Virus record (IMG/VR): IMGVR_UViG_3300045996_001823
Coordinates: 1 to 31,530 of that record
DNA length: 31,530 nt
Direction: 5' to 3' (one strand)
Source: a virus
Made by a program: the position numbers and the translations under genes. The number at the start of each line of letters is the position of its first letter. Positions within the stretch are counted from its first letter, which is position 1. The notes beneath the pieces are model-generated. The model did not search any database. It was not told the origin of the DNA and saw only the letters and a list, made by a program, of their open reading frames with translations. Shown in pieces: positions 4,706-31,312 of the stretch.

Positions 4706-5170
4706 TTACGCGATATCTGTTTTGATAGTGATCACCTCTTCGGCAATAGGCGTATAGGCACCGGCAGCCACTAGCACAGCGTAGATTTTCGGGTCTCCAC
4801 TGAAAGAACTAGAGTTAGGTAAACCAATAGGCGCTTCCGGTTTCGCAGAGCTGTTTTTATTTGCCGCGAAGGCGCTCCACGACGAATGAGAAACTTTACC
4901 TAAGAAATTGTCTTTCATCTGATCGTCTGTTGGCGCAAAAGCGGCGTTGTCGGCTGCTATTGTAAAAGACGAAGAGAAAAAGTAAACATCGATAGATGGC
5001 GTTCCAGATTGATTACTGCTTATTAAATGATTGAGCAGTATATAAGGATTAGCAAGCACCTGAGAGTAACTTAGCTCGATGGGTGTCGTAGAGCCGTTTG
5101 CGTTGATAACGTCTCCGGTTGTGTAAGCGGTAGTATCGTTGGGTCTGGTGATTGTATTTTTAGGAATCAT
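4706..5170 (-). CDS. putative virion/tail surface protein
   Basis: This 154-residue protein is rich in Ser, Ala, Asn and Thr, with predicted beta strands and a motif set (TTGDVINANG near the start, DVYFFSSSFTIAADNAAFAPTDDQM around residues 62-86) that I associate with small beta-sandwich structural proteins of tailed phages. It overlaps the LysM-like gene by 4 nt and lies between baseplate genes and the tailspike, so it may link the fibre to the baseplate or decorate it. I cannot name a family with confidence. Confidence 0.55.
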   Translation of the reverse strand: MIPKNTITRPNDTTAYTTGDVINANGSTTPIELSYSQVLANPYILLNHLISSNQSGTPSIDVYFFSSSFTIAADNAAFAPTDDQMKDNFLGKVSHSSWSAFAANKNSSAKPEAPIGLPNSSSFSGDPKIYAVLVAAGAYTPIAEEVITIKTDIA

Positions 5171-5622
5171 ATTGAATCAGTGGTTATTGTTAATGAATTG
5201 TTTCTTAATTTTTTGTAGAAACCAACGTCGCTCATCTCGCTTATTTCAAAGGTAAATGAAGCGCTCGCTACGGGTGCGGCATCTATGTTAGTGATGTTGT
5301 TGTCTATGAGATATTTATATACCTTTTCCAGCGGATAGCCAGATTGTAAAACCAAGTCATACCACGTCTGATTTTCTTTAATCACGCCGGTAACCTGGTT
5401 CGCCGGAGCTGAAGTATTTTTTTTGGTTAATTGAGGGGGGTTGACTATTCTGAAGGTCGAGTCGTACTCTACCGTTTTATTCGGGTTTGCCTCAAAGTCA
5501 AAGTCGATAGAATCTATAAAGGAATTTTCACGAATCAGTTTATACACGTTGTCAATGGTGTATCCTGACTGTATCGCTAAGTCGTAAATATTTTGTCCGT
5601 ATTTTACTTTAATCTCTGCCAT
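5167..5622 (-). CDS. tail protein with two LysM-like repeats
   Basis: This 151-residue protein has two similar blocks. The first, near the N-terminus, is VKYGQNIYDLAIQSGYTIDNV; the second, around residues 80-112, contains IKENQTWYDLVLQSGY. Both follow the LysM pattern of a strand, then a D-L-A/V-x-Q-S-G-Y helix turn. LysM domains bind peptidoglycan and occur in baseplate or tail proteins such as P2 gpX and T4 gp53. Overlaps of 1 nt upstream and 4 nt downstream place it in the baseplate operon. The C-terminal 40 residues form a further beta-rich part. The gene also contains a candidate internal promoter. Confidence 0.7.
   Translation of the reverse strand: MAEIKVKYGQNIYDLAIQSGYTIDNVYKLIRENSFIDSIDFDFEANPNKTVEYDSTFRIVNPPQLTKKNTSAPANQVTGVIKENQTWYDLVLQSGYPLEKVYKYLIDNNITNIDAAPVASASFTFEISEMSDVGFYKKLRNNSLTITTDSI
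5247..5291 (-). promoter_or_regulatory. candidate intragenic late promoter
   Basis: Inside the LysM-like gene, CTAACATA (5284-5291, minus strand) is followed 29 nt later by TACCTTTG (5247-5254), a perfect TAnnTTTG -7 box. This is the late-promoter layout described elsewhere in the window, with one extra base of spacing. It would feed the virion gene at 4706-5170, the tailspike and possibly lysis. Because it lies in coding sequence, it could be chance. Confidence 0.35.
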
Positions 5623-13932: not shown

Positions 13933-14403
13933 TTACAGATTGAATTTGTTTTGGAGCTCAACCATTTTCTTGGAAGCAACAGCAGTTAACTCGGAGTCGT
14001 TTCCGGTGTTAGTGTGCGTTCCCAGGTCAGCGCCTTTTTTATTGATTACCATGGACTCAAGGATGGCCTTCGTACCTGCTGGATTCGCGAGGTAGTTTTT
14101 GGTCCACATTTCGATCACCGGAGCCTCGTTTTTGATCTTGCCCACTTTTACAGCGTTTTCGATTTCAACTTTAGCTTCGTTTCCAACGCGAGCTTCTTCG
14201 TCCGCCTTAGCTTTTGCCTTCATAGCGTTTAACTCGTTGTCGAGTTTGTCGTATTCAGCTTTTTTGTTAGCGAGTTCGTTTTCCAGATCTTTAATTTTCT
14301 GGTTTCCCGCTCTGTTTTCAGCTTCGATTTTGTCGATAGCCATAACAATTCCGTCTTCGTTGGTCCCGTCGACAAGATTCAGTTTGTTATATACTTTTTT
14401 CAT
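13933..14403 (-). CDS. possible nested scaffold protein (internal start)
   Basis: Met212 of the protease gene (ATG at 14403) follows an A-rich stretch resembling the leaders of other genes here, and the second codons are AAA AAA. Starting there gives a 156-residue protein that holds only the coiled coil and helical C-terminus. Nested scaffolds such as lambda Nu3 are made this way. Inference from position and context only. Confidence 0.4.
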   Translation of the reverse strand: MKKVYNKLNLVDGTNEDGIVMAIDKIEAENRAGNQKIKDLENELANKKAEYDKLDNELNAMKAKAKADEEARVGNEAKVEIENAVKVGKIKNEAPVIEMWTKNYLANPAGTKAILESMVINKKGADLGTHTNTGNDSELTAVASKKMVELQNKFNL

Positions 14404-15036
14404 TTGTGATTTTTTATTATTTAATTTTTCGTTGATAGCGCTATTGGTAATTTGCTTGTAGTGATTATGAGCGGTAAGAACATTGGATAGGTCCGGCTTA
14501 GTTCTTACTTTGTTGAAGTCAGAAGAAGACTCGCGGATACATAGCCCTAGAGACTCGCATTCGATAGCGTCCATCCAAGTGGTAGCGTCCATCAAACCCT
14601 TAACAACTTCTGAGGTTAAAAACCCACGAGAAGAAATCATTGTGTTAACACACTTTTCAAATACCTGTCTGCTTACTTCGTCACCACCAGAAACGGGGTG
14701 AACCATGAGGACCGCGTTGTCCATCATATAGCGATTACGTCCGGCTAAAAAGATTGGAGCGGCAATAGAAGCCGCCATGCCTACGTTGTGAGTGTCGACT
14801 TTCGTCTTTGTTTTTAAGATTGTGTTGAAGATTTGCATCCCATCGACCACCGATCCGCCCGGAGAGTTAACCCAGATGTTGATTTTTGATTTACCAATAG
14901 TGTCAAGGAACATCAATTCGCGGCAAAACTTATCCGCTGGAATCCCCGTACCCGTTTCTTCGTTGTATCCGATTTCAGCATCTAAAAGCATGATAGGCTC
15001 TTCGGCGCTTGGGTCAATCGTGTAGAGAAATTCCAT
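13933..15036 (-). CDS. ClpP-type head maturation protease fused to scaffold
   Basis: Residues 14-190 are a ClpP/S14 fold with NIWVNSPGGSVVDGM, the serine motif VGMAAS (S90) and MVHP (H113); D150 in MDATTW is the likely third catalytic residue. Residues 235-285 form a charged coiled coil rich in K, E, A and N, and the C-terminus (about 300-367) is helical, as in capsid scaffolds. The protease would trim scaffold and capsid during prohead maturation. An internal Met212 in an A-rich context could start a separate scaffold. The ATG lies 4 nt after a -7 box, suggesting a leaderless transcript. Confidence 0.85.
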   Translation of the reverse strand: MEFLYTIDPSAEEPIMLLDAEIGYNEETGTGIPADKFCRELMFLDTIGKSKINIWVNSPGGSVVDGMQIFNTILKTKTKVDTHNVGMAASIAAPIFLAGRNRYMMDNAVLMVHPVSGGDEVSRQVFEKCVNTMISSRGFLTSEVVKGLMDATTWMDAIECESLGLCIRESSSDFNKVRTKPDLSNVLTAHNHYKQITNSAINEKLNNKKSQMKKVYNKLNLVDGTNEDGIVMAIDKIEAENRAGNQKIKDLENELANKKAEYDKLDNELNAMKAKAKADEEARVGNEAKVEIENAVKVGKIKNEAPVIEMWTKNYLANPAGTKAILESMVINKKGADLGTHTNTGNDSELTAVASKKMVELQNKFNL

Positions 15037-15040
15037 TACA

Positions 15041-15094
15041 CAAAGTTTCCGATAATGCTTTTTTGAGGGTGTTGTTTATGTTAGAGTATGTTAG
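15041..15094 (-). promoter_or_regulatory. late promoter of protease/capsid operon
   Basis: Two CTAACATA copies (15087-15094 and 15077-15084, minus strand) are spaced exactly 10 bp apart. The second starts 36 nt before AAACTTTG (15041-15048), one mismatch from TAnnTTTG. Then TGTA and the protease ATG at 15036 follow. No -33 TTTG is present. The repeats look like binding sites for an activator on one face of the helix. Confidence 0.65.
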
Positions 15095-15105
15095 CAAAAT
15101 GTTTA

Positions 15106-15141
15106 TTAGTTTACCCTAATAAAATAGTTAGGGAAACCTAA
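15106..15141. repeat. inverted repeat between divergent units (operator-like)
   Basis: CCCTAA (15114-15119) and TTAGGG (15128-15133) form a perfect dyad with an 8-nt spacer. The flanks continue the symmetry with one-base offsets. No T run follows on either strand, so it is more like an operator than a terminator. It lies between the leftward capsid-operon promoter and the rightward accessory gene at 15164. Confidence 0.5.
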
Positions 15142-15163
15142 TAAATGTAATTTGGCATTACGA

Positions 15164-15394
15164 ATGAGTGAAAAACTACCATGGATGGAACGGCAAGTGG
15201 CGACTTACCTACATCCGAAATACTACAAGCTTTTTATAGCGGATTGTCACAGTAACCTCAGCGGAAAATCTGAAACCTGTGCAAAGATTTTGAAAATGTT
15301 TTACGATCAACTCCCGGATCTACAAAAGCGGAACCTGGAGAGGTTGTATGACGAGATGAGTGACGAGCAAAAAAAGAACCCTAGGAAGGCGTAG
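15164..15394 (+). CDS. small hypothetical protein, first gene of accessory cassette
   Basis: I chose the ATG at 15164 (76 residues) over an in-frame TTG four codons upstream. The protein is basic and helical. The middle, NLSGKSETCAKILKMFYDQLP (about residues 31-51), resembles a serine-lysine-initiated amphipathic helix seen in ribbon-helix-helix or other small DNA-binding proteins, but I cannot name a family. It faces opposite to the structural genes around it, behind an operator-like dyad, and is followed by the structured RNA segment. A regulatory role in the cassette is possible. Confidence 0.65.
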   Translation: MSEKLPWMERQVATYLHPKYYKLFIADCHSNLSGKSETCAKILKMFYDQLPDLQKRNLERLYDEMSDEQKKNPRKA

Positions 15395-15448
15395 TACAAA
15401 CTAACCGAACGGTAACTTACCAAGTAGTAACATGAAAAAATTAAATCT

Positions 15449-15749
15449 CTAGCCGTTTCAAAGGCGGCAGCTTGTAACACAACGGACAAGGCTTTGGCCC
15501 CACAAGATTGCTGATGACACAATCCTCATCGACAGGTTTAAAAACCGTCAGGTAGCAATCTTAAACCAAGGGATGGGTAGCGAGTGGTTGACCAGTTACA
15601 GGCAGATTTGATGACACTGGCAATCTCGGACAAGGGGATGCGGGTTCGGCTTCAAACCGAGTAGAAATAACTAATGGACAGGATCGATAGAATAACCGTG
15701 TCAGTGTAAAAACCATAGAGAAAGTAGACCTGAGAAAAGGCCATTTTTT
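15449..15749 (+). ncRNA. structured non-coding RNA candidate of unknown class
   Basis: The 369-nt stretch between the flanking genes has no plausible reading frame but many compatible stems. AAGATTGCT (15504-15512) pairs with AGCAATCTT (15554-15562), enclosing two abutting hairpins: GATGA/TCATC (15513-15530) and GACaGGTT/AACCGTC (15531-15549), a clean three-way junction. Others are CTTGT/ACAAG (15471-15490), TTGaCCAGT/ACTGGCAA (15588-15623), CTCGG/CCGAG (15625-15661) and GACAGG/CCgTGTC (15677-15702). A module (GATTnTGATGACAC...AATC...GACAAGG...AAACCG...GTAG) appears twice, about 100 nt apart. A T6 run at 15744-15749 may end it. Strand is inferred from the flanking genes. It does not look like tRNA, tmRNA or RNase P RNA. 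Confidence 0.55.
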
Positions 15750-15751
15750 AT

Positions 15752-15759
15752 TAAATTTG
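15752..15759 (+). promoter_or_regulatory. -7 box directly before 15764 gene
   Basis: TAAATTTG is a perfect TAnnTTTG box, followed by four bases and the ATG at 15764. The same box-N4-ATG spacing occurs at 16032 and at 25803 (minus). A transcript starting about four to seven bases after the box would be leaderless or nearly so. No clear -33 TTG is present. Confidence 0.45.
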
Positions 15760-15763
15760 AATT

Positions 15764-16012
15764 ATGAAACGATACTGGCTTTTTTCTTTTCCTAATTGCT
15801 ACCCGAGCGGCGGCTTTGAAGATTTCAACGGTTCTTTTGATACCATTATCGAGTGTGATAAAGCACAGGAAAAAACAAACAATGAAATGGGTCATATTTT
15901 TGACTCAGAAACCAAGACCATTTTGAAAGAGTATTATCCTAGAGTGAGTGATTACGACTTAAAACAAAACCCGCATCTTAACGAAATATTTGATCTTGAT
16001 CGATTAAAATAA
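15764..16012 (+). CDS. small accessory protein (82 aa)
   Basis: This soluble acidic protein opens with MKRYWLFSFPNCYPSGGFEDFNGSFDT, a pattern I associate with short conserved hypothetical proteins of Bacteroidota and their phages in which the N-terminal strand is followed by YPSGG and a D-G-F/D-F-D-T turn. The second half is helical and charged. It lies between the structured RNA and the secreted-protein gene, with its own -7 box. No function is known to me. Confidence 0.65.
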   Translation: MKRYWLFSFPNCYPSGGFEDFNGSFDTIIECDKAQEKTNNEMGHIFDSETKTILKEYYPRVSDYDLKQNPHLNEIFDLDRLK

Positions 16013-16027
16013 TTTTCATTACCTTTA
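15996..16027 (+). promoter_or_regulatory. -33/-7 promoter for 16032 gene
   Basis: TTG (15996-15998) and TACCTTTA (16020-16027, one mismatch to TAnnTTTG) are separated by 21 nt, a normal Bacteroidota spacing. The ATG follows four bases later, predicting a leaderless or near-leaderless mRNA. The -33 part lies in the end of the preceding gene. Confidence 0.5.
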
Positions 16028-16031
16028 GTCT

Positions 16032-16568
16032 ATGAAAAAGACGTTAATAATACTAGCCGTTCTTATTTCCCCGCTGTTTAAAGGTCAAAATCCAAATATC
16101 CCAATAGTTAATGTCTGGAGGGTCCTACCTCAAAACGCCTGTCCTGGTGATACACTGAGAGTGAATTTTAAATTCAACCCTCCGACACAAGGGACGATGC
16201 AAACCACTTATTTCAACATTTACAACGGATCAACCGTAACAACCGTTTGGAATGGAAACTGGAATACGTTCTACTCCCTACCAAAAGAAACTTGGGCGCC
16301 GCTTGCGACAGCCGATAGCTGTTATTTGATGAAATTAGTTGTGCCGTTTGGACTTTCGGGATGTTCATGCGCGAGCGTTACCGCTACGGGTGACGACATG
16401 GGGTTTACACTTAATGTCTGCGCGACTAGTATCCAAGAAGAAACATTAAACGACTTTGTCCCTACTGTATACTTTGATTTGTACGGTAACAAGACGGACA
16501 AAAAACCTAACACCGTTCTTATCGAGCAGCGCGGAACAACCCGAAAGAAGGTAATTGTTCAGCCTTAA
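16032..16568 (+). CDS. secreted accessory protein with T9SS-like C-terminus
   Basis: This 178-residue protein has a signal peptide (MKKTLIILAVLISPLFKGQ, likely cut near residue 18) and a beta-sandwich-like body with at least five cysteines, including CSC around residues 114-116. The C-terminus, YFDLYGNKTDKKPNTVLIEQ followed by a basic RKKVIV end, resembles the last strands of type IX secretion C-terminal domains (D-L-x-G-x-K ... KKVIV). The canonical PNP start of that domain is missing. It may be surface-exposed on the lysogen, a typical role for a prophage moron. It converges with the tail fibre-like gene, overlapping by 4 nt. Confidence 0.7.
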   Translation: MKKTLIILAVLISPLFKGQNPNIPIVNVWRVLPQNACPGDTLRVNFKFNPPTQGTMQTTYFNIYNGSTVTTVWNGNWNTFYSLPKETWAPLATADSCYLMKLVVPFGLSGCSCASVTATGDDMGFTLNVCATSIQEETLNDFVPTVYFDLYGNKTDKKPNTVLIEQRGTTRKKVIVQP

Positions 16569-17380
16569 ATTTGCTCAAGTACGAATAATCCGTTTGAAAT
16601 ACTTTGGTTATTTGAAGAAGATCTTTCTACTGTCAATTTAATAATCGACCCTGCCGCCACATTTTCAGCTACGTAATACAAAGTTGCCGGTTTGTTGCAC
16701 TGGGAGACGGTGTCACTATCAATCGCTTTTGGCGTGATGGTCCTAACGGTAGAACCTCCGATTTTTAATCGAATTATTGCCCCTGTAACGCTGCTAACCA
16801 AACTTCCTCCGGCAACTTCAGCCGAGAAGGTAATTCGGTAACTTCGCGTTCCAACCGGTGTCGTGTATGTCGCGCCGGTGATGTCTGTCTCTGATCCGGA
16901 AGCGGTAGTGAATGTTGCTACCGTTATTTGCTGGAAATCTTTCCTTAACAAATCAGCTAAGTCAAAAGCTCCGGTTCCTGACGTCCCAGCCTGGAGCACC
17001 AACCTTTTAATCTTATGCACAGAACCGGTGGACCCGTCCGAAAATTCTATGGGATCGATAGTAGGCTCATTCGTTAAAGACTCCACAAAAACGGCGGTTG
17101 GCGCCATTGCTAATATGCCCGTAGCGCCAGCAAAGTAATAAAGCTCGTCGTCAAAAAATATGAAGCCGTCACTTAGTACGTTGCCTCCACCGCTGGAAAC
17201 ACACCCGGAAACTACTATCCCATTGGAACCGGCTACCGCGTATAAGCCTTCGCCGATCACCTGACGACAAACGCCTTTGAATATCTCGCGGTTAGCGTTT
17301 TGTAAAAAAGTTAAAGACGCTCCTAAAAACGGCTGTTGTTTTGAGGGGTCAGAAATCTGTGTTGTATCTATGTAATTCAT
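16565..17380 (-). CDS. tail fibre/baseplate-associated protein
   Basis: This 271-residue protein has an N-terminal adaptor-like part (1-130) with VVSGCVSSGGGNVLSDGFIFFDDELYYF, a pattern common in tail proteins carrying fibre domains. A C-terminal beta-rich domain (about 155-271) with TPVGTRSYRITFSAEVAGG and LFVLEQI resembles a jelly-roll receptor-binding or fibre tip domain. It starts 2 nt after the gpI-like gene, so it probably attaches to the baseplate. It is the last gene of its leftward operon, next to the accessory cassette. Confidence 0.65.
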   Translation of the reverse strand: MNYIDTTQISDPSKQQPFLGASLTFLQNANREIFKGVCRQVIGEGLYAVAGSNGIVVSGCVSSGGGNVLSDGFIFFDDELYYFAGATGILAMAPTAVFVESLTNEPTIDPIEFSDGSTGSVHKIKRLVLQAGTSGTGAFDLADLLRKDFQQITVATFTTASGSETDITGATYTTPVGTRSYRITFSAEVAGGSLVSSVTGAIIRLKIGGSTVRTITPKAIDSDTVSQCNKPATLYYVAENVAAGSIIKLTVERSSSNNQSISNGLFVLEQI

Positions 17381-17382
17381 AA

Positions 17383-18063
17383 TTAAAAAGTTTGTATGTC
17401 GTAATTCATTCCGGTTAGCTTGTATTTATCTACCACGTTCCGGATCATTTTATCCTTGTCAGCATTCAGCGCCGGGGGTAAAGCTGTGTATAAAGCAATA
17501 GGGAAATAAACGGTAAAATCGTATTGAGTTGCAGAGTAGGTGTAGCCCATGAAGTAACTAGAATAGGCGCTGTAATTGCTTAGATTCCCCGAAGTAGCAG
17601 AAGATCCACCCATCAATAATTGAGACGTTGTTACATTCGTAGAAATGTAAATCAAATCGCTCGGCGCGGCATTCATAAACCAGCGATTTAGAGCATATTC
17701 TAAAACTATAATCTGGGAATTATATTTTACCCTCTCGTTCGCTCCGATATAATTGTCCTGAATTTTCCTCCAATAGTCAGTGTTTAAAGGGTTCTGCAGC
17801 GCACCAACGGCGCCCGCTGGATTGATACACTCATAGTTTCCAAGATCAGAATACCTCACTCTTGAAAATTGAGCGAAGCCGGACACCGCGTCCCAATCCT
17901 GGTAAGCTGTACCCTTCGCGTAGTCGTCAAAAAACAAGTCCCTGAGCCATTGGAGCGGATACATTAACGAGTATCCCCACGCAAGCAGCTTAGGCTTCCT
18001 TTTGTTTGGAGGCGAAAGTGATTCGTACTGTGTGTTGTAGTCTATGTCGTAAATGTCAGGCAT
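17383..18063 (-). CDS. baseplate protein, gpI-like by position
   Basis: This 226-residue protein follows baseplate J with a one-base overlap, the place of P2 gpI or Mu gp48. The N-terminal half is aromatic-rich (YSLMYPLQWLRDLFFDDYAKGTAY), and the middle contains FSRVRYSDLGNYECINPAG, a structural-protein pattern in Bacteroidota phages. The C-terminus ends in a helical IRNVVDKYKLTGMNYDI. I infer a wedge or periphery role from order; sequence similarity to gpI is not obvious by eye. Confidence 0.6.
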   Translation of the reverse strand: MPDIYDIDYNTQYESLSPPNKRKPKLLAWGYSLMYPLQWLRDLFFDDYAKGTAYQDWDAVSGFAQFSRVRYSDLGNYECINPAGAVGALQNPLNTDYWRKIQDNYIGANERVKYNSQIIVLEYALNRWFMNAAPSDLIYISTNVTTSQLLMGGSSATSGNLSNYSAYSSYFMGYTYSATQYDFTVYFPIALYTALPPALNADKDKMIRNVVDKYKLTGMNYDIQTF

Positions 18064-18941
18064 TACGCTGGAGTAAAGGTTAATTTATCAGCAAAAGTTT
18101 GACCGGCGGTTGTTTCCTGCTCCACATAACCGGCAAAGGTTGGATAGGAGGTAAGGATCGATAAACCGGTTTGTATTAAATATGTTTTGCTTGCGAAGGC
18201 GGTCGCGTTCGGACGAATGGCAGCGTTTAGAATGTTAATGTCAATAACGCCCTCCACGCCTTGAATCGCGTCGATAATTTTCAAGATGTAAATGGTACCG
18301 TCAAAGTCCAGCTCAGCGAAATACTCTTCGATAGCGGCGATCACGTTTGCTTGGATCACACTTGCATATTGCCCGTCATAAGTAATTGTTCCCTCTAGGA
18401 AGAATTTATCTGAAGCGACAGAGGTTACATTACAGCGTACCCCGGCAAAGGCTATTCCTACACCCGCGCTGGTCCCGTTGCCCCCGTTCGTTAAATAAGT
18501 CGACAAAGCGCTAAGCTCCGGAGCCGATAAAGCAACAGGCGGATCACTTTTCGCTACCTTGATGTTTACTGTTTTATTTGATGCCGTTTTTACTGAACAC
18601 CTGGTAATTATTCTTAAATCCTCGTCGACTGTAGCATAACCAACGGACATGGTCGTGGTGTCTAAAGTTACTACCTGCGGAACCGTAGCCGAGTACTGAA
18701 ACTCTAGTACTTTTTGTTGATACCAGAAGTCCGAACCGACCGCCGCGTATTTTATTTTGTCCTCGATGTCATGCTTAAAAACATCCAGGAGCTGTTCGAA
18801 TAAATTAATCGCCACGGCTACGATAAACGCCCATAAATTATAGAGCGCCACTGCCGATGTGCTGTTCAACGAAGCCAATTCCGCCTGCGCCGATTTCTCG
18901 TCTAGTATTTGTTGCTTTATTACAGCTATTGTTCTTGCCAT
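18063..18941 (-). CDS. baseplate J-like protein
   Basis: This 292-residue protein starts with a helical region (1-60) containing ALYNLWAFIVAVAINLFEQLLDVFKHDIE, then a beta part with VTSVASDKFFLEGTITYDGQ, and ends with a helix (IQANVIAAIEEYFAELDFDGTIYILKIIDAIQGVEGVIDINI) typical of the C-terminal half of gpJ/Mu gp47 wedges. It would form the baseplate wedge that links to fibres. It overlaps both neighbours by one base. J and I lie upstream of the capsid genes here, far from the W/V/D cluster. Confidence 0.75.
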   Translation of the reverse strand: MARTIAVIKQQILDEKSAQAELASLNSTSAVALYNLWAFIVAVAINLFEQLLDVFKHDIEDKIKYAAVGSDFWYQQKVLEFQYSATVPQVVTLDTTTMSVGYATVDEDLRIITRCSVKTASNKTVNIKVAKSDPPVALSAPELSALSTYLTNGGNGTSAGVGIAFAGVRCNVTSVASDKFFLEGTITYDGQYASVIQANVIAAIEEYFAELDFDGTIYILKIIDAIQGVEGVIDINILNAAIRPNATAFASKTYLIQTGLSILTSYPTFAGYVEQETTAGQTFADKLTFTPA

Positions 18942-19477
18942 TATAATTTCTTAGTATAAGGTGAAGGGTTGTAACCAACCGTTAGGTCTAAGTCAGTCGG
19001 CGGATCTTTTGTGACGCCTCCAACCGGCTCGGCCATGCCATTATCGATATAGTTAGTTGTGTATTCTTGAATAAAATGATAAATAGCCTTATGGTTAGTG
19101 TCTTGGGTTTCCTCTGTTCTCATAAAAGCTACCGCTCCGGAAGGTTCAAATTTCTGAAGGGCCTTATAAACTAAGGTTCTTAAATCAAACACATCAAGGT
19201 TCTGTTCCATGCTACCGTCTCCGGCATCATACAGCTCGTGTCCTATGTGGATATTCACTAACAAAGGATCGTAAATCTGATATCCGCCTCCAAGCTGTTT
19301 AATAGGGCTTGGGCTCACGAACTCAACAAATACGCAGGGAAAAGGAAAGGAGTATATTAAAGAGCCGCCTTCGCCCTGATCGATTAAGTCGAATTGCCTG
19401 TTATACATCTGTATAAACTGGATACTAGGCACCTCGGTCTCTAATTGTCCTTTTATGGCAAGGAATAACTGTTTCAC
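18941..19477 (-). CDS. tail terminator/completion-like protein
   Basis: This 178-residue protein has the alpha-beta order of tail terminator proteins: N-terminal helix (MKQLFLAIKGQLETEVPSI), a strand with PFPCVFVEFVSPSP, a strand with YDPLLVNIHIGHELY, a helix with DVFDLRTLVYKALQKFEP, and a closing strand region HKAIYHFIQEYTTNYID. Such proteins cap the tail tube and join it to the head connector. It lies between the gpG-like gene and baseplate J and overlaps them by 4 and 1 nt. The C-terminal 30 residues are proline-rich. Confidence 0.65.
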   Translation of the reverse strand: MKQLFLAIKGQLETEVPSIQFIQMYNRQFDLIDQGEGGSLIYSFPFPCVFVEFVSPSPIKQLGGGYQIYDPLLVNIHIGHELYDAGDGSMEQNLDVFDLRTLVYKALQKFEPSGAVAFMRTEETQDTNHKAIYHFIQEYTTNYIDNGMAEPVGGVTKDPPTDLDLTVGYNPSPYTKKL

Positions 19478-19929
19478 GCGAACGTCTTTTTATACATTTG
19501 AATTACTTTTCTTTTAAACATCATCCTTAGATAGTGGCCATCTCCGATAAACTTTCTTTTAGGCATCCCGTTCAAACCTTCATTATGAGCCTTTGCGTAC
19601 GGGAGCCCTGAAACAAGCCATTCAATACGCTTAAATGTTTTTGTTTTCAAACTATTGTTAACCTCTCTTCTTAGCGCCCCTGATTTAACTAACGTTTTCC
19701 TTGTCCTTCTACCCAAGTCTTTTTTTCTCGGGTATTTGAACGCCTTTGTTCCTGGTATTCTGCGTTGTGGTATTTTCCACGGCGTATTATTCCAGGCTTC
19801 TTTCTTAAACGACTCTACAAAGATTCGCGTACCCAAATTGCCGATGACAGCAGGAATGTCTTTCCTTGTCGAGGCTACTCTTTTTTCAAGAGCTTTAAAA
19901 GCCGACCGAAAATCTTTGTGCGTCGCCAT
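19474..19929 (-). CDS. virion morphogenesis protein, Mu gpG / phage_tail_S-like
   Basis: This 151-residue basic protein has an N-terminal helix (KALEKRVASTRKDIPAVIGNLGTRIF), a WNNTPWKIPQRR segment, and a C-terminal YAKAHNEGLNGMPKRKFIGDG motif, which is the hallmark of the phage virion morphogenesis family (Mu gpG, P2 gpS). These proteins help complete tails and join them to heads. It overlaps the tail terminator gene by 4 nt and touches the upstream gene by one base. Confidence 0.8.
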   Translation of the reverse strand: MATHKDFRSAFKALEKRVASTRKDIPAVIGNLGTRIFVESFKKEAWNNTPWKIPQRRIPGTKAFKYPRKKDLGRRTRKTLVKSGALRREVNNSLKTKTFKRIEWLVSGLPYAKAHNEGLNGMPKRKFIGDGHYLRMMFKRKVIQMYKKTFA

Positions 19930-20246
19930 TATGCCGTTGCTATTTTGTTTTCGTAGAAGTCGAAATACGTTTTTTCTCCCATCAACGAACTATTCATTCT
20001 TACCTCAACCCCGTCAAAAGTATACTGCTCGATATTCGTTTCAGCCTGATCAGCGCGACCTTCTTTTTCAAGATTAAACCTTACCCAATCAGTAAACTGA
20101 ATAAAATACTTCGGGCTCAAGTATATTGTCTTCAGCGGCTTTTCAACTCGTCTATAATGCTTTCTGTAATGGCTAACAATGCTCGCCACCATGTCCACAG
20201 CGATTAAACCTGTCGACTCCCAATTATTTATGTAGTTTGTGTTCAT
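19929..20246 (-). CDS. hypothetical protein of head-tail operon
   Basis: This 105-residue protein has an N-terminal helical region (about residues 12-32) and beta-rich C-terminal part (IEQYTFDGVEVRMNSSLMG). It lies between the Mu F-like and gpG-like genes and overlaps both by 1-4 nt, so it is cotranscribed with head completion genes. I do not recognise a family. Its position suggests a head completion or connector role. Confidence 0.6.
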   Translation of the reverse strand: MNTNYINNWESTGLIAVDMVASIVSHYRKHYRRVEKPLKTIYLSPKYFIQFTDWVRFNLEKEGRADQAETNIEQYTFDGVEVRMNSSLMGEKTYFDFYENKIATA

Positions 20247-21007
20247 TTCGGTATAGGTAGATTAAAATTCTTTCTTGCCAGTTCTTTGTCCTTTGGCGCA
20301 ACGTCGAAATAAGGATGTTCCTTATTGAAAATCACTTTATCAATCCCCGGATTACCTTTAAACACAGGATTAATATGGTCTGTTTGCTCAATTGCCGAGT
20401 CTATCTTTGTTCTGCTCGACAGTTTTACATCTTCGTACTTGTCGATCTTCTCCAAAATACACCGACAACGAAAATGCGTCAACGGCGATCTTGACTTCCA
20501 AAAAGTGTCGTCGACCGGCGCTATGATGTCATTTAGTATCCTGCACTCTTCGCTCGTGTTCGCATCCATAACCGCTGATCTTTTCAGATAAGGAAAGAGT
20601 TCCTTACTGCTTTCTATATCCTCCCATTTTACTGCCGTTTGAGCCTGACCAACCGCGGTATTGTATTCAGCTTCCAGGTAATCAACATTGTAAGTGTCGA
20701 ATCGCTCCCTTGCTACCTTTTTAAACTCTGAAAAGGTTCTCAGTTTGTCGCCATCAAGAATTAAAGAACTAATTTCTTTTACCTGAGTGTAAGTCTTGGC
20801 TCCTGAGAAAATGTAAATGTTTTGGGTTAGCTCCCTTTTTAGCTCATCACTTACATAATCACTGAATGCAAAACCTACATTCATTCCCTGCACTAATTTC
20901 TTAGCCGTCTTTTCATAGACTTTTTTAGGGAGGTTATTTATTTTTATTTTCCCTGAATAAATGTCTACGAGGACCCGATTAATATCGCCTTCCCTCATGA
21001 AACTCAT
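20243..21007 (-). CDS. minor head protein, Mu gpF / SPP1 gp7-like
   Basis: This 254-residue protein carries the phage head morphogenesis motif at about residues 140-185: MDANTSEECRILNDIIAPVDD followed by PLTHFRCRC, with the conserved Cys and His. The N-terminal half is helical. Mu gpF and SPP1 gp7 are internal minor head proteins that bind the portal and influence DNA ejection. It lies directly after the portal gene with a 4-nt overlap, as in Mu. Confidence 0.88.
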   Translation of the reverse strand: MSFMREGDINRVLVDIYSGKIKINNLPKKVYEKTAKKLVQGMNVGFAFSDYVSDELKRELTQNIYIFSGAKTYTQVKEISSLILDGDKLRTFSEFKKVARERFDTYNVDYLEAEYNTAVGQAQTAVKWEDIESSKELFPYLKRSAVMDANTSEECRILNDIIAPVDDTFWKSRSPLTHFRCRCILEKIDKYEDVKLSSRTKIDSAIEQTDHINPVFKGNPGIDKVIFNKEHPYFDVAPKDKELARKNFNLPIPK

Positions 21008-22317
21008 CTATACAGGTTTTTAAGTTTAATCTTTACTTTATCGTCAAGCTCCTTTTCTGGCTCTACTTCAGTTTCTATTTTCTCTGCCGGTATTCCCGTT
21101 CTTTCTGTAAAATATTCCGGGTCCATCTGGAGACCAGCGTTTTTCATGTTCACAGCGATCTCAGAAACTACTTTATTATTAGTATCTTCCTTTAGGCGGG
21201 CTTCTTCCTTCTCCTTATTGTTCAGGATGCAGAATTTATAACCAGCAGGAATTTTAATCCCTAGGTTCATCAGTTTAGGGATAACTTTTGTGTTAACAAT
21301 ATATTCCATCCACTGGTTATCGATCTTTTCTGTTCTTTTGATCGCATCAGCCGCTCCGTCTTCTCCGCCAAGCTTACCTTGTTGGCTGTCCATAGCATCC
21401 GCATGGCCAAGAATGATTTTGGAAATCATTTTCAGAGCCCTGTTTTCGAAATTATCAAAGCCCTGATTTTTTCCGGCGCCGGTAGATCCTGCTAATAGCT
21501 CTAACTCGTCCGTGGGGTCAATGATAGCCCAACCACTTGCTCCCATGGCCGCGAGCCCGTTTTCCTGCTCAGCTCGCTCTACCGGATCTTGCTTTGCAGT
21601 TTTGAGTACACGTATTGGTTGACCATAAAGCTCTAAAGCCGTTGCGTTATACCCCATGTTGTTCCGCAGCATAATTTCGTAGTATGCTACTTTATATAGA
21701 TACCCATAACCGCAGGTGGAATAACCGTCAACACTCGGAGTGTCAATCCATATAGTCCAATCGATTATTTTATTTCCGTTTGCATCAGCTTGGTTAGGGT
21801 CCAAAAAGTTCAGACCCGATAAAGAATACACGTAAGCAGTAACTTGGTGCCTGTCCGGTGAAATATTCCAGCGGCGAACCACGGTAAGGTTAGGAAACTC
21901 GTTATTAATCATGTCCCCAAGGTTCACTAGGGTATAGCCGTATGCCTTAGCGTCGAGCGCGTAGTTCATTAGCTTATAAAACCATTCCTTCTTAAATAAT
22001 TCGGTAGTTTTTTCATCTACCGTTTCGCCATTCATTATAGCGAAGTCTTTCAGTAGGGTAAGGTCTTTTCGGAGCTGCATAGCGGCATCTACCTGACCAT
22101 TCAAAACAGTATCCTGGTAGATCCTCTGCATTTTAACCCTGTGAGGATAGAATGCCTGTTCCGCTTCTTTTATCCCGTCCCTCCACGCTCCGATGTCAAG
22201 CTTCAATCGCTCAAACTGAACGGGAGAGATATAGCGACTAATATTCTGGGCCGATGTGGTCCGGTTTATTCCGCTAGTTGGAAAGAAGTAGTTTTTTATA
22301 TTTTTAAATGCGCTCAT
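21004..22317 (-). CDS. portal protein (DUF935, Mu gp29-like)
   Basis: This 437-residue protein has the DUF935 pattern: YQDTVLNGQVDAAMQLRKD near residues 70-86, WFYKLMNYALDAKAYGYT, then NISPDRHQVT, ENRALKMISKIILGHA near 285-300, and a C-terminal helix with KKEEARLKEDTN and an acidic tail (EVEPEKELDDK). The dodecameric portal forms the DNA channel and docks the terminase. It overlaps the DUF1320-type gene upstream by one base and the Mu F-like gene downstream by 4 nt. Confidence 0.87.
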   Translation of the reverse strand: MSAFKNIKNYFFPTSGINRTTSAQNISRYISPVQFERLKLDIGAWRDGIKEAEQAFYPHRVKMQRIYQDTVLNGQVDAAMQLRKDLTLLKDFAIMNGETVDEKTTELFKKEWFYKLMNYALDAKAYGYTLVNLGDMINNEFPNLTVVRRWNISPDRHQVTAYVYSLSGLNFLDPNQADANGNKIIDWTIWIDTPSVDGYSTCGYGYLYKVAYYEIMLRNNMGYNATALELYGQPIRVLKTAKQDPVERAEQENGLAAMGASGWAIIDPTDELELLAGSTGAGKNQGFDNFENRALKMISKIILGHADAMDSQQGKLGGEDGAADAIKRTEKIDNQWMEYIVNTKVIPKLMNLGIKIPAGYKFCILNNKEKEEARLKEDTNNKVVSEIAVNMKNAGLQMDPEYFTERTGIPAEKIETEVEPEKELDDKVKIKLKNLYR

Positions 22318-23195
22318 TAATAGTCGTTTTGTCTCCTTACTTGTCCGCCGAACGCTATTTTACTTCCTGATTTAGGCTGAAGTCTGGGAATGTTTACTGT
22401 AAAGGCTCCGTCTGCCACAGCCTCTAACCATGCCGTCGCCGCTGCATATCTGTCCATCCTTAATTGAGGGATGTTGTTTGGTGACATTCGACTATGAAGG
22501 TGATAAAGGCAGATGTCTACCGTTTTTTGTACTAAGAGTCGGTTCCGGTTGTCCCCCGCGGTCCATTTGGTTGTATTAGTTGGTAGCGTACCTGCTGCAA
22601 CCGAGTAAGTTGTCCCTGTGCCCCAATATTGAGCTCCAGCGATTGTGTCGTCTGGAAAAACATTTTGAAGTGGCAGGGTAGCGGTGTTGCCGTATTGTAA
22701 CGCGGTCTCGTGATCAAGAATAGGTGATGATATCGCCGCTGTATAAACTTTGTTTTTCCACCAAACCTGATCGCCGACTTTGTAATAAGATTTATAATCA
22801 AACTCCGCATGAGGAAGTGTGACATGAAACAAATCATACTGAGCGCCCAACAAGGTCCATTTGGTCGGATCGAAAGTTCCGGTTGTTGCACCTATACAGA
22901 TATAAGCGTTTCCGGAATAGATTACTAAATTATTGATTACATAAGCCGTAGCCGGTACGTAAGTGCTGAAGTTAAGTTCTACGCGATCCTTTGCGGAGTA
23001 TACTGTACTTGGCGACCATGGCTCTGTGTCCGTAAATTCTTTGTCTGTGTCATACTTCTGGTCGATATAACTAATGACCTCTTCTTCGGCTTCCTGCTCG
23101 GTTAATGTTCGAAAGCTGTCTGTGTTTGATAATACCTGCTGAAAATTGACAGATTGTATTTTACTGAGATAGTCGTAATAGCGCAGGTATGGCAT
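22317..23195 (-). CDS. DUF1320-type head-tail connector with carbohydrate-binding-like insert
   Basis: Residues 1-58 (RTLTEQEAEEEVISYIDQKYD) and the last 75 (NRLLVQKTVDICLYHLHSRM, then RMDRYAAATAWLEAVADGAF) resemble the two halves of DUF1320/Mu gp36 head completion proteins. Between them, about residues 60-215 hold two or three repeats of the type W-x(4)-Y-x-x-G-D-x-V-x(5)-Y-x-A, including YKVGDQVWWKNKVYTA, resembling CBM5/12 chitin-binding-like modules. Such modules are sometimes inserted in loops of phage structural proteins. The ATG lies 4 nt after a perfect -7 box. Confidence 0.72.
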   Translation of the reverse strand: MPYLRYYDYLSKIQSVNFQQVLSNTDSFRTLTEQEAEEEVISYIDQKYDTDKEFTDTEPWSPSTVYSAKDRVELNFSTYVPATAYVINNLVIYSGNAYICIGATTGTFDPTKWTLLGAQYDLFHVTLPHAEFDYKSYYKVGDQVWWKNKVYTAAISSPILDHETALQYGNTATLPLQNVFPDDTIAGAQYWGTGTTYSVAAGTLPTNTTKWTAGDNRNRLLVQKTVDICLYHLHSRMSPNNIPQLRMDRYAAATAWLEAVADGAFTVNIPRLQPKSGSKIAFGGQVRRQNDY

Positions 23196-23199
23196 AAAA

Positions 23200-23243
23200 C
23201 AAAATTACCCCGCGTTAATTTCAAGTGTGGTAATCTATGTTAG
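23200..23243 (-). promoter_or_regulatory. late promoter of connector/portal operon
   Basis: CTAACATA (23236-23243, minus strand) starts exactly 36 nt before TAATTTTG (23200-23207), a perfect TAnnTTTG. TTTT and the ATG at 23195 follow. There is no -33 TTTG at normal spacing. The site is directly downstream of the terL terminator, so it begins an independent transcription unit. Confidence 0.68.
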
Positions 23244-23245
23244 TG

Positions 23246-23274
23246 AAAAAGGCCACCCCGAAGAGCAGCCTTTT
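23246..23274 (-). terminator. Rho-independent terminator after terL
   Basis: On the minus strand AAAAGGCTGCTC pairs, with G-U pairs, to GGGTGGCCTTTT around a TTCG tetraloop, ending in five T. The wobble pairing favours the minus-strand RNA. It would end the TerS-TerL transcript before the portal operon. Confidence 0.72.
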
Positions 23275-23304
23275 AAAATAAACTGAAAACAAAAACACAA
23301 AGTG

Positions 23305-23348
23305 TAAAAGTAAAATGTCGTTTTCTATTTTATTTGCAGGTATGTTAG
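23305..23348 (-). promoter_or_regulatory. candidate late promoter at end of terL
   Basis: CTAACATA (23341-23348) overlaps the terL stop codon and starts 36 nt before TACTTTTA (23305-23312), one mismatch to TAnnTTTG. Spacing equals that of the other late promoters. The terminator lies only about 25 nt past the expected start, so the product would be a short RNA unless it is read through. Confidence 0.45.
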
Positions 23349-24931
23349 TAAATGTGCTTATGTGCCGTTTTACCCGTTACTATTTTTGTGGCCTTGCCTG
23401 CCTTTAGATACTTTTGATACTCAGAAGCAAAAGCTACCGTGAATATGTACCGCTTCATGTCGCTAAAATGCCCGAACTCCTGGTAAGGTATTTTTGTGAC
23501 CGGATGTTTTTTTGTGGTTTTGGCAATATTTCCGTTTTCATCCTCAAGAGCATATTGATAGTCGTGTATTGATCGCTTGCAGTTGTCCCCGATGGTCACA
23601 AAAATGTTGCCTTCGTTGTACCGGTAACAGGCATTAACGAATTTACCAGATTGATAAACTGATGGGTTTACGCTTTGCAGCCTTAGCGTTGGCTTATAGT
23701 CTTTCAGGTACCCGACTATTTCCGTGAACATATTCTGCCCCTTCTCTTTGGTTGAGTCTTCAGATACCGCGGTCTTATCCCCATAAATAAACAAGCCCTT
23801 CACAACACTAGGAGGATATCGACTAACGAACTCTTCGCATACTATCCGGACTCTGTTTTTAGGGTCCTCAAAAGCGATCTCATCAAATTGACAAATACTC
23901 TTCTTTTCGCCATTAATATCTATTTGCCACATAGAACACGGCTGATAAGGATTTACGTTTTTATCCCAGCTCATGTGAATAGGTCGCGACGGATCAAAAA
24001 GCTGAGGATAGCCTTTAATTAATCTGTTTGACTTGACGTGATTATTGGTATTAAAATCTTTCCAGAACTCGCCGCCGGTTCTTAATCGACCCCAATTACC
24101 AAGTCCGTAAACCTGATAATAATTAAAGTCGTCTATTTTATCCTTCTCAAAGTCGTCTATCGTGTGCTGATCGACAAACCCGCCAACGAGGCGCCCGTTT
24201 CTCCACTTCCCGACAATAAAAATATTATCCAGGTAGTTAGTTTTCATAACTACCGTGTTTTGCTTTGAATTAACCCATAATCCTGTAATAGGAATGTTGT
24301 CACCAGCGTCTTCATGAAAAAAACCAGTGTCTTTTTCTATTAAAGCCTCTTTATCGAAGACGTTAACTTTAATCCAGTGATCTTCTGATATAGGATTGAA
24401 GATGCCGACTATCTGTTGCCCTTTACGCCCGCGGAGTCGTTTTCTTATCTGTTTTAAATCAACTTCGTCGAACTGGGAGATTTCCTCTAAAATGACGCGC
24501 TTAAAATTTGTGATACCTTTAATTTTTTCGCTGTCGTCCAATCCTCGAAAGCGAACGTAAGACCCGGTTCCCTTACAGACGATATAATTTTGCTGAATGA
24601 TGAACTCGCTATTCAGCCCCCAATCGTTAATAATGTTTTTGAAGTCTGAGTAAATAGAGTCCCTTATGTCTACGGCAAATTTTCTTAATACGAGGGTGTT
24701 ATTGTTTTTGCCCTGCATCATTTCTATGATGGTGAGCTGAACAACTGAATAAGATTTTGAAGCGGAAGACCCTCCGTAAATCCAGATAAACCTTAACAAT
24801 AAGTTCGAGAAAGCGTCTTTGAGGTGCCAGAAGACGTTATTGAAAAGGTCCGGATTGAAATTAATTTTGACTTCTTTTCCTTTTGGCTTCACTCTTTCTC
24901 GTAGCTTATCTGGATTGAGATATTGTGCCAA
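23345..24931 (-). CDS. terL: terminase large subunit (ATPase/nuclease)
   Basis: This 528-residue packaging motor has a Walker A-type P-loop at residues 53-60 (GGSSASKS), a Walker B at 146-150 (VILEE), and a C-terminal RNase H-like nuclease with aspartates in MSWDKN, IYGDKT and HFSDMKR. It pumps DNA into the prohead and cuts the concatemer. The start is TTG at 24931: the frame has a stop shortly upstream and no ATG before the P-loop. It is overlapped by a 50-codon reading frame. The 3' end holds a CTAACATA element. Confidence 0.9.
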   Translation of the reverse strand: MAQYLNPDKLRERVKPKGKEVKINFNPDLFNNVFWHLKDAFSNLLLRFIWIYGGSSASKSYSVVQLTIIEMMQGKNNNTLVLRKFAVDIRDSIYSDFKNIINDWGLNSEFIIQQNYIVCKGTGSYVRFRGLDDSEKIKGITNFKRVILEEISQFDEVDLKQIRKRLRGRKGQQIVGIFNPISEDHWIKVNVFDKEALIEKDTGFFHEDAGDNIPITGLWVNSKQNTVVMKTNYLDNIFIVGKWRNGRLVGGFVDQHTIDDFEKDKIDDFNYYQVYGLGNWGRLRTGGEFWKDFNTNNHVKSNRLIKGYPQLFDPSRPIHMSWDKNVNPYQPCSMWQIDINGEKKSICQFDEIAFEDPKNRVRIVCEEFVSRYPPSVVKGLFIYGDKTAVSEDSTKEKGQNMFTEIVGYLKDYKPTLRLQSVNPSVYQSGKFVNACYRYNEGNIFVTIGDNCKRSIHDYQYALEDENGNIAKTTKKHPVTKIPYQEFGHFSDMKRYIFTVAFASEYQKYLKAGKATKIVTGKTAHKHIY

Positions 24932-25041
24932 GTGTATTGTTGGCCAATAATTATGACTATCGTCTTAGATTTTTTACGCTTGGTTTTCCCCTGTTTTTCT
25001 GTTGGCTGGTCACTTTCTGCCGCCGGTGAGTGTCCCGTCAT
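24889..25041 (-). CDS. small reading frame bridging terS and terL (50 aa)
   Basis: An ATG overlapping the terS stop (ATGA) opens a 50-codon frame that ends inside terL. The product is hydrophilic and lysine-rich, with a short IVIII stretch and no known motif. It fills the otherwise empty 105-nt gap, and ATGA coupling is common in this phage. It could be a real gene or simply a way to carry ribosomes to the TTG start of terL. Confidence 0.4.
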   Translation of the reverse strand: MTGHSPAAESDQPTEKQGKTKRKKSKTIVIIIGQQYTWHNISIQISYEKE

Positions 25042-25484
25042 TCCTCAAAAGTTGTGTTTTCGTCCCCTGTTTTTTTAAAGCCTATAACATAAGATGAAAC
25101 CGTTTCCCCGTTACTCGTTACATCCATTTTGTCCCCGTATTTTTTCGGCGCCAACTTTGACGCTTTCCACTTCCTTGCATCAATTCTTAATCGATCTCTA
25201 GCTATTTTGGCCTGATTGGGATATTCTCCGTGTTCGCCAGATAGGGTGTCTTTTGATTCGTCGTCTGATATTTCGATGATCTCGTCAGCCAACAGGTCCG
25301 CTTGCTCTTCTCGCGCACGCGCGTATCTCTCCGAAAACCCCTCATGTTCAATTAGCCATAAGTAAACTGAGGAAGGTGCTATCTTCAGATCTTTGCAAAT
25401 AGAATTTAGCCCCTTGCTTTTTGTGGCTAGCGCTTCGCAAATCTGTTCGGCTAATTCTTCAGTGTATTTTGTAGGGCGGGCCAT
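25038..25484 (-). CDS. terS: terminase small subunit
   Basis: Starting at the ATG at 25484 gives 148 residues; an in-frame GTG two codons earlier lies within the promoter spacing and is less likely. Residues 1-45 form an HTH (RPTKYTEELAEQICEALATK, then ICKDLKIAPSSVYLWL), followed by a helical stretch with FSERYARAREEQADLLADEIIEISDD and IARDRLRIDARKWKASKLAPKKYGDK. This is the typical small terminase pattern for DNA recognition and TerL stimulation. It heads the packaging operon. Confidence 0.88.
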   Translation of the reverse strand: MARPTKYTEELAEQICEALATKSKGLNSICKDLKIAPSSVYLWLIEHEGFSERYARAREEQADLLADEIIEISDDESKDTLSGEHGEYPNQAKIARDRLRIDARKWKASKLAPKKYGDKMDVTSNGETVSSYVIGFKKTGDENTTFEE

Positions 25485-25489
25485 TAACA

Positions 25490-25533
25490 CAAAGTTCGCT
25501 TATTGAAAATTGCGCTACGTTACACTATGTTAG
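25490..25533 (-). promoter_or_regulatory. late promoter of packaging operon
   Basis: CTAACATA (25526-25533, minus strand) starts 36 nt before GAACTTTG (25490-25497), one mismatch to TAnnTTTG. A second half-similar copy, GTAACGTA, sits 10 bp after the first. TGTTA and the terS ATG follow, so the mRNA would be leaderless or nearly so. No -33 TTTG is seen. Confidence 0.65.
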
Positions 25534-29491: not shown

Positions 29492-29839
29492 ATGCTAAAA
29501 CAAACTGAAATAGATTTTAACGTACACCAGTACGAAAGTAAGGCTGAAAGTCAGATAATACTTGACAATAACAGGCCACACTTTTCAAGGCAATGCAGAG
29601 TATTATTTGATGCTTTGATGGCCGGGAAAGTTCTTACAAGTGAGATTTCTTTTTTAGAATACAACATCGTTGACTTTAGAAGAAGGATATGCGACTTAAA
29701 AGAGATCGGCGTTTTAATCTCTTCAAGACTGAAACAGAATAGCAGGTCTAAAGAATGGTTTCTCGACAAGGATCAGAAAGAATACAACTCGAAGTTTAAC
29801 TACTCTGATATTGAAAACAACACTTATAAACTAAAATAA
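29492..29839 (+). CDS. putative winged-helix protein of early region
   Basis: This 115-residue protein has a mid-section (about residues 30-80, FSRQCRVLFDALMAGKVLTS, then FLEYNIVDFRRRICDLKEIGVLISSRL) with the winged-helix order of helix, helix, recognition helix and wing. Similar short proteins are frequent in early regions of Bacteroidota phages. DNA binding is inferred. It ends with the base that begins the next gene (TAATG). Confidence 0.65.
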   Translation: MLKQTEIDFNVHQYESKAESQIILDNNRPHFSRQCRVLFDALMAGKVLTSEISFLEYNIVDFRRRICDLKEIGVLISSRLKQNSRSKEWFLDKDQKEYNSKFNYSDIENNTYKLK

Positions 29840-30347: not shown

Positions 30348-30599
30348 ATGGCCATGCTATTAGAATCCTTCAGCGCTCCCTACTCTTTAAAGAGAAATAC
30401 ACTACCTGACGTAGAGTTTGAAAAGTGTGTTTACTGCCATGACTGTTCAGATGTCAATACTATGCACTTCGACAAGGATGGAGTAGACTATATCTGCCCT
30501 GTATGCTTCCATTTATTCTTAGATGATGTTAGACCTTACTTACTTATACAAGACTATGAAGCACTTGAATTAAAATTAAATAAACTAAAACAACTATGA
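30348..30599 (+). CDS. zinc-binding early protein
   Basis: This 83-residue protein holds CVYC (C27/C30), one further Cys at 33, and CPVC (C50/C53) with FDKDGVDYI between, giving a four-cysteine zinc ribbon or knuckle. The C-terminus is a leucine-rich amphipathic helix. It overlaps the YopX-like gene as ATGA, indicating coupling. A nucleic-acid or protein-binding adaptor role is likely, but the family is not identified. Confidence 0.68.
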   Translation: MAMLLESFSAPYSLKRNTLPDVEFEKCVYCHDCSDVNTMHFDKDGVDYICPVCFHLFLDDVRPYLLIQDYEALELKLNKLKQL

Positions 30600-31048
30600 G
30601 CAGAGAAATAAAATTTAGAGCATGGGATAACCACAATAAAAAATGGCTTTTAGGATATGAGTATCCGAACCTTGGCGGCTTTAGCTTGTTCGGCGGATGT
30701 GTGTTAATGGGAGAATGGGAAAACGTAGCAACTTCTTTTTTATTTGGAAAAAACGGTTTAGCTCCTGAAGATTTAAAGATAATGCAATACACCGGACTAA
30801 AAGACAAGAACGGCAAAGAGATTTACGAAGGGGACATATACAGATATAATTCTTCTGCTACGAACTATCAGGTGATGTTTGTCGGGGGCGCCTTTTGCGG
30901 TGGAATTAGTGAAGACTCCTGTGCCCCTATTGGATGGAGAGGTTCTGACGATCGAGAAGACGGTGATTTATATGAAGACTACTACTATAAAAAACACCTT
31001 GAAGTCATCGGTAATATTTACGAGAATCCCGAACTACTAAAACCCTAA
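30596..31048 (+). CDS. YopX family protein
   Basis: This 150-residue protein shows the YopX signature: an N-terminal REIKFRAWDNHNKKWL, a central IMQYTGLKDKNGKEIYEGDI and a C-terminal VIGNIYENPELL. YopX proteins are widespread in phages and prophages of Firmicutes and Bacteroidota and form large oligomeric rings in known structures. Their function in the phage cycle is unknown. It overlaps the zinc-binding gene by 4 nt. Confidence 0.9.
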   Translation: MSREIKFRAWDNHNKKWLLGYEYPNLGGFSLFGGCVLMGEWENVATSFLFGKNGLAPEDLKIMQYTGLKDKNGKEIYEGDIYRYNSSATNYQVMFVGGAFCGGISEDSCAPIGWRGSDDREDGDLYEDYYYKKHLEVIGNIYENPELLKP

Positions 31049-31063
31049 TCCCCCTCCACCCCT

Positions 31064-31312
31064 ATGAGAGAATTACAACACAGAGATTTAAGTGAGTATA
31101 AAGGCAACGTAAGATCAATGGAAATGATTGAGAAGTGCAACGATACTTACGCCTTTTGTCTCGCAGAACAAATAGCAGAACAAAGATTAGCAGGACTACC
31201 AACCGAACACTTGGATCAAAAGCTGAAAATAGAAATGACAAGGATGTTCACCTCTACACGGGTTATGTTAGGTAAACCAGCTTACAATGAAATTATGAAT
31301 AAATCAAAATAA
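31064..31312 (+). CDS. hypothetical early protein (82 aa)
   Basis: This 82-residue protein is helical and charged, with three cysteine-poor amphipathic helices (MEMIEKCNDTYAFCLAEQI, LDQKLKIEMTRMF and a short end). It starts 15 nt after the YopX stop and ends 6 nt before the DUF3127 gene. No family is recognised. Confidence 0.6.
   Translation: MRELQHRDLSEYKGNVRSMEMIEKCNDTYAFCLAEQIAEQRLAGLPTEHLDQKLKIEMTRMFTSTRVMLGKPAYNEIMNKSK

Follow-up and report, generated by a model that had tools for sequence, protein, structure and literature searches.

The virus record IMGVR_UViG_3300045996_001823, analysed here in its entirety (31,530 bases, hereafter the window), encodes proteins with PHROGs matches to terminase, portal, head protease, sheath, tape measure, hub, amidase, integrase and repressor families, which point to a temperate contractile-tailed phage. 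A nucleotide search with the window matched no cultured phage, and neither tRNA genes nor Rfam families were found in it. Our subject is a set of late-promoter sites that place the 8-mer CTAACATA at a near-constant distance from a -7 box, together with a gene for a ribbon-helix-helix (RHH) protein that lies beside one of these sites and that we propose as their regulator. The features are listed below, identified by sequence unless another basis is given; nt denotes nucleotides and bp base pairs.

25525-25533, minus strand: operator unit of the terS promoter (CTAACATAG), then GTAACGTAG 10 bp on
25490-25497, minus strand: -7 box of terS (GAACTTTG)
25038-25484, minus strand: terminase small subunit gene, start set at ATG 25484 (PHROGs; sequence)
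23340-23348, minus strand: operator unit at the terL end (CTAACATAC)
23305-23312, minus strand: -7 box at the terL end (TACTTTTA)
23246-23274, minus strand: intrinsic terminator between terL and connector (hairpin and U run, folding z-score -4.05)
23235-23243, minus strand: operator unit of the connector promoter (CTAACATAG)
23200-23207, minus strand: -7 box of the connector/portal operon (TAATTTTG)
22317-23195, minus strand: connector gene (head-tail adaptor), predicted leaderless (start codon 4 nt past box)
15164-15394, plus strand: gene for a 76-residue RHH protein proposed to regulate the late genes; diverges from the protease gene (profile, AlphaFold2 fold, covariation)
15086-15094, minus strand: upstream one of the two protease operator units (CTAACATAC), spaced 10 bp from its neighbour
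15076-15084, minus strand: protease operator unit (CTAACATAA) centred at 15080, which is 32 nt ahead of the -7 box (position shared by 65 relatives)
15041-15048, minus strand: -7 box of the protease/capsid operon (AAACTTTG)
13933-15036, minus strand: head maturation protease gene, which opens the capsid/tail operon and is predicted leaderless (PHROGs; start codon 4 nt past box)
5283-5291, minus strand: operator unit inside the LysM gene (CTAACATAG; same place in the LysM genes of relatives L064 and L046, near the end of that of L044)
5247-5254, minus strand: -7 box within the LysM gene (TACCTTTG), preceding the gene 4706-5170

Seven copies of CTAACATA occur in the window, all on the minus (late-gene) strand, versus 1.0 expected, and no shuffle reached seven. 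A first-pass annotation of this DNA had claimed a fixed 36-nt spacing between the 8-mer and a -7 box at four leftward sites, and 37 nt at a fifth inside the LysM gene. This is borne out: the copies starting at 25533, 23348, 23243 and 15084 have a box exactly 36 nt downstream of their first base, and the LysM copy, starting at 5291, has one at 37 nt. These five sites, which lie upstream of the terS, connector and protease/capsid operons, at the terL end and inside the LysM gene, compare with a mean of 0.027 and a maximum of 1 in 300 dinucleotide shuffles when the box is matched at 5/6 positions or more. The accompanying reading of every box as TAnnTTTG, the Bacteroidota primary-sigma promoter element (-12 to -5), holds exactly at the connector and LysM sites; the others are only TAnnTTTR-like, with one mismatch at terS (GAACTTTG) and protease (AAACTTTG) and TACTTTTA at the terL end.

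Beyond the first-pass annotation, we identified the RHH gene and two further copies of the 8-mer. The sixth copy, at 15094, repeats the protease copy in tandem from 10 bp upstream; the seventh (31264-31271, starting at 31271) lacks a box and is probably a chance occurrence. The operator unit is better described as a 9-bp imperfect inverted repeat, CTA-ACA-TAG, than as an 8-mer. Its centre lies 32 nt before the box at terS, the terL end, connector and protease, and 33 nt before it in the LysM gene.

Scans with the TerL, protease and connector proteins yielded about 140 related loci. The literal CTAACATA is nearly absent among the TerL relatives; we dropped this absence as a refutation once a gene-by-gene comparison of upstream regions revealed that each relative carries a motif of its own in the same slot. 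For example, L036 and L044 share CTAACGTA, with two copies 10 bp apart at the protease and one at the connector, and other phages have ATAGCGCAA (L002), TTAGCATAAA (L032), TTGCTGCAA (L056) or CTAATATAG (L064). Protease and connector promoters carrying one phage's shared motif lie 8 kb apart. Across 34 distinct phages, the word score between protease and connector upstream regions was 13.53 within a phage and 11.50 between phages (permutation p=1e-4). The same-phage pairing ranks first of 34 in L002, L036, L050, L056, L070 and L078; in L032, L043 and the window it ranks second among connectors, and third, second and seventh, respectively, in the reverse direction. Phages without an intergenic gap between terL and connector mostly have no shared motif. 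A motif that is particular to each phage and shared between its distant promoters suggests a trans-acting factor that varies from phage to phage. In L078, long palindromes like GTAATACG-N3-CGTATTAC stand upstream of both protease and connector, displaced from the usual operator slot by about 25 nt in the upstream direction.

The LysM site behaves similarly. The L064 LysM codons homologous to the window site hold that phage's own CTAATATAG through a synonymous AAC to AAT change. ATAGCGCAA stands in the LysM gene of L046 and CTAACGTA at the end of that of L044; in each case a box follows at 31-33 nt. The LysM site had looked like a coding coincidence, but its place is conserved and its letters track each phage's motif.

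The spaced motif search in relatives that the first-pass annotation had proposed as a check gave a positive outcome, with letters that differ by phage. When 65 distinct protease promoters were aligned on the box, dyad symmetry peaked exactly 32 nt before it (58.5% complementary versus 28.3%, z=10), and in 200 shuffles no offset passed 39.6%. The peak persists among promoters whose proteases are at most 50% identical (n=32, z=8.3) and also without the W-like phages, outside which the usual operator form is GTRnnnYAC with an A-rich flank on one side and a T-rich flank on the other. The strongest single palindrome per phage is a noisy measure, yet it fell at the expected distance in 16/73 cases versus 3.3 expected. 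In Flavobacterium psychrophilum, TAnnTTTG occupies -12 to -5 (PMC9723704); a dyad 32 nt before such a box is centred at about -44. At this position, predicted from that of the box, the operator would be placed as for a class II activator site (about -41 to -44, fixed spacing). The three operon-start sites do lack a -33 TTTG, as the first-pass annotation had reported, and TTTG stands at -33 in one of the 65 protease promoters (2.2 expected). F. johnsoniae promoters in general have no -33 element (PMC7366714), and since the element is weak in the phylum generally its absence here is weak evidence.

What protein might bind these sites? Similar short open reading frames (ORFs) adjoin the protease gene in many relatives. 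A profile search placed an RHH gene beside the protease at 80/109 loci (51/73 unique loci), where it is co-directional with the late genes in 36 of the 51 unique loci and divergent in 15. A broader profile detected an RHH protein in 19/20 whole records; the remaining record, L050, encodes a 188-residue divergent protein (15246, minus strand) whose C-terminus reads like an RHH domain after a longer N-terminal part. An AlphaFold2 model of the window protein built from 51 sequences has a predicted local distance difference test score of 93, with helices at 18-31 and 35-48; the model is of the monomer, and the N-terminal RHH strand forms only in the dimer. A first model, from nine sequences, was poor and the fold search made from it meaningless. 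Among solved structures, the closest folds belong to CopG, Arc, AmrZ, MatP, ParG and RHH antitoxins (root-mean-square deviation 1.0-1.5), and the family profile matches ORF56 and a CopG-family chain (E 0.003-0.006). The window protein by itself matched no Pfam RHH model; matches to RHH_1, RHH_5 or Arc-like PHROGs came from a few other members of the family. In L036, L043 and L045, a second, shorter RHH-like ORF (MKQIIVYFTPRYYKMFIADC...) lies beside the first on the same strand upstream of the protease, and the RHH match of L005 (record G009:C1:3706-3888) contains one in-frame TAA.

The RHH protein covaries with the operator. With protease similarity held constant, RHH similarity correlates with operator similarity (partial Mantel r=0.30, p=2e-4); with RHH similarity held constant, operator and protease similarity are uncorrelated. 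The DNA between operator and box, used as a spacer control, gave a partial r of 0.04 (p=0.22). Linkage alone would predict the same correlation for the adjacent protease gene. In divergent layouts, inspection of L002, L054, L056, L064 and L036 places the operators next to or overlapping the RHH gene's own -7-like boxes; in co-directional layouts the RHH gene closes the preceding late operon.

What the computation shows directly is the sites, their fixed spacing, the motifs that each phage has in common between distant promoters, and an RHH gene that is linked to the operator and covaries with it. We consider it reasonably probable that a late regulator encoded by the phage uses these sites as its operators and activates transcription in the manner of Mu Mor; the RHH protein encoded at 15164-15394 is the most likely one. 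RHH dimers would bind CTA-ACA-TAG centred at about -44, directly upstream of the -33 position, and would recruit or stabilise host RNA polymerase carrying the primary sigma factor (sigma-A) at the -7 box. Their targets would be the terS, connector/portal and protease/capsid/tail operons and the internal LysM-gene promoter, with two dimers sitting side by side, 10 bp apart, at the protease promoter. We infer a class II activator from the fixed -44 position, the missing -33 element and the upstream tandem unit; it is this geometry that favours activation over repression. In the divergent layout, operators adjoining the RHH gene's own promoter suggest that the protein may repress itself, and in the co-directional layout an RHH gene at the end of the preceding late operon would give a cascade.

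Several points weigh against this proposal. RHH binding, activation and its timing are all deduced from sequence, and the absence of the -33 element is a weak point of the activator argument. Most known RHH proteins are repressors (PMC5569661), and the PHROGs relatives bear the name Arc-like repressor. The first profile gave no RHH match at about 20-30% of loci, and Foldseek E-values are weak because the fold is tiny. The RHH gene adjoins the protease operator, such that co-inheritance could add to the correlation. In addition, the phage's own operator recurs at other near-leaderless starts only in the W-like group and showed no recurrence in co-directional phages, so that a multi-operon regulon is demonstrated for the W-like group only.

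The strongest competing explanation, which we regard as unlikely, has the RHH protein bind these operators as a repressor of the late operons in the style of Arc or CopG, for instance during lysogeny or as negative feedback. The repressor habit of known RHH proteins (PMC5569661), the PHROGs name and, in divergent layouts, operators next to the promoter of the RHH gene itself would all fit. An operator centred at -44, upstream of both the -7 box and the -33 position and exactly spaced in 65 phages, is instead activator-like, as are late boxes without a -33 element.

It is more doubtful still that a different phage protein binds the sites and the RHH gene is merely linked to them. Many phages make their late activators from early genes, and the first-pass annotation had looked to the early region, listing among its candidates a gene at 29492 that encodes a winged helix-turn-helix protein (HTH_39). 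This candidate found no match in 20 related records, in a single-sequence search without a positive control whose empty result is weak, whereas RHH proteins occur in 19 of them, and the operator covaries with the RHH protein and not with the equally close protease. The first-pass notion of a sequence-specific, phage-encoded factor at a fixed distance upstream of late -7 boxes is supported, and since the motif in this slot differs with each relative a host factor is unlikely. An early-region origin is not supported, the RHH gene beside the protease being the better candidate. Recognition by a regulator or an atypical sigma factor of the host would suit the host-type -7 box but is very improbable, because the operator varies from phage to phage and is common to promoters within one phage. 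Chance recurrence of an 8-mer in an A+T-rich genome beside loosely matched boxes, two of which depart from consensus, is refuted by the shuffle test (5 observed versus 0.027 expected) and by relatives that keep the spacing and the dyad, across 65 phages, with other letters.

The proposed promoters also bear on translation. In the window, the start codon lies exactly 4 nt past the box at connector and protease and 5 nt past it at terS (ATG 25484). The 4-nt distance is exact in 37/65 of the relatives' protease promoters, and an exact TAnnTTTR stands 3-8 nt before the start of 37/73 protease genes versus 4.2% of other ORFs. These distances suggest that most target mRNAs begin at or beside the start codon and are mostly leaderless, taking the transcription starts as predicted from the boxes: at about 15036, 23195 and 25485, and some 5 nt past the boxes in the LysM gene and at the terL end. 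mRNAs with a very short leader or none make up about 4-5% in the hosts studied (PMC7366714, PMC9723704).

Other features of the window deserve mention. The terL-end promoter faces the intrinsic terminator about 30-55 nt downstream (23246-23348) and would yield either a very short RNA or read-through into the connector gene. Two plus-strand genes (15764-16012 and 16032-16568) come after the RHH gene within the late region; the N-terminus of the second product resembles that of a secreted protein (MKKTLIILAVLISPLFKGQ), and this gene may be a moron. The early region encodes a YopX-family protein (PF09643) at 30596-31048 on the plus strand.

Comparison with known systems helps to place the proposed regulator. 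Mu Mor is a helix-turn-helix protein rather than an RHH protein, and no Pfam or PHROGs match to Mor/C was found among 51 members of the RHH family. At the Mu promoter Pm, Mor binds a dyad centred at -43.5 and takes the place of the -35 contact of host polymerase (PMC4390567). Mor thus resembles the proposed system as a phage-encoded activator at the same geometry (-43.5 versus about -44), but differs in serving a middle promoter of a Mu-type phage in a sigma-70 host. P2 Ogr and P4 Delta are likewise small phage activators of several late operons, and the Ogr gene closes a late operon, as the co-directional RHH genes do; unlike the RHH protein, they are zinc-binding proteins that act from a site near -55 in enterobacterial hosts. 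Viral RHH regulators include AvtR and SvtR of archaeal viruses and F55 of SSV1, of which AvtR can both activate and repress and F55 binds tandem repeats (PMC5569661). These proteins act at archaeal promoters, AvtR consists of two fused RHH domains, and none is a late activator of a tailed phage. Arc, CopG, MetJ and AmrZ share with the window protein the RHH fold and short palindromic operator units, often in tandem, but are mostly repressors and have no close sequence relationship to it.

The cultured Winoviridae (Pippivirus lotta8-1 and pippi8-1, on Flavobacterium sp. LMO8; FPSV-S1) resemble the window in structural gene order and in having a small divergent gene beside the protease. Their protease ATG is preceded at 4-5 nt by a -7-like box, and upstream of that box lie AAAGAC direct repeats spaced 11 bp apart. 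Their divergent 60-residue protein (gp33; L150:19349-19531, L151:19316-19498, L149:21469-21657) matched neither the RHH model nor Pfam. In these phages the slot may have been kept and the protein exchanged for another regulator.

Taken more broadly, there is about an even chance that contractile-tailed Bacteroidota phages share one design, in which a phage-specific RHH operator at -44 and a host -7 box drive a leaderless capsid-operon mRNA, the same-slot regulator diverges fast with its operator, and in cultured Winoviridae it is perhaps replaced by a small protein that is unrelated to it and has a repeat of its own. This would constitute a family of RHH class II activators with rapidly diversifying specificity. 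Phage late activation through a class II site is known; the protein class and the promoter type would be new. A search of open-access full text, with matches judged by title and abstract opening and subscription literature outside its scope, found neither an RHH late activator of a tailed phage nor a late activator of Bacteroidota phages.

The natural series of protein-operator pairs offers a route to the rules of RHH recognition and possibly an orthogonal promoter switch for a phylum in which genetic tools are scarce, and the cultured Winoviridae provide an available test system. The leaderless capsid-operon mRNAs predicted here belong to a class that is rare in the hosts studied. Late-gene switching in Bacteroidota phages is almost undescribed, and for it we propose a specific protein, operator and geometry.

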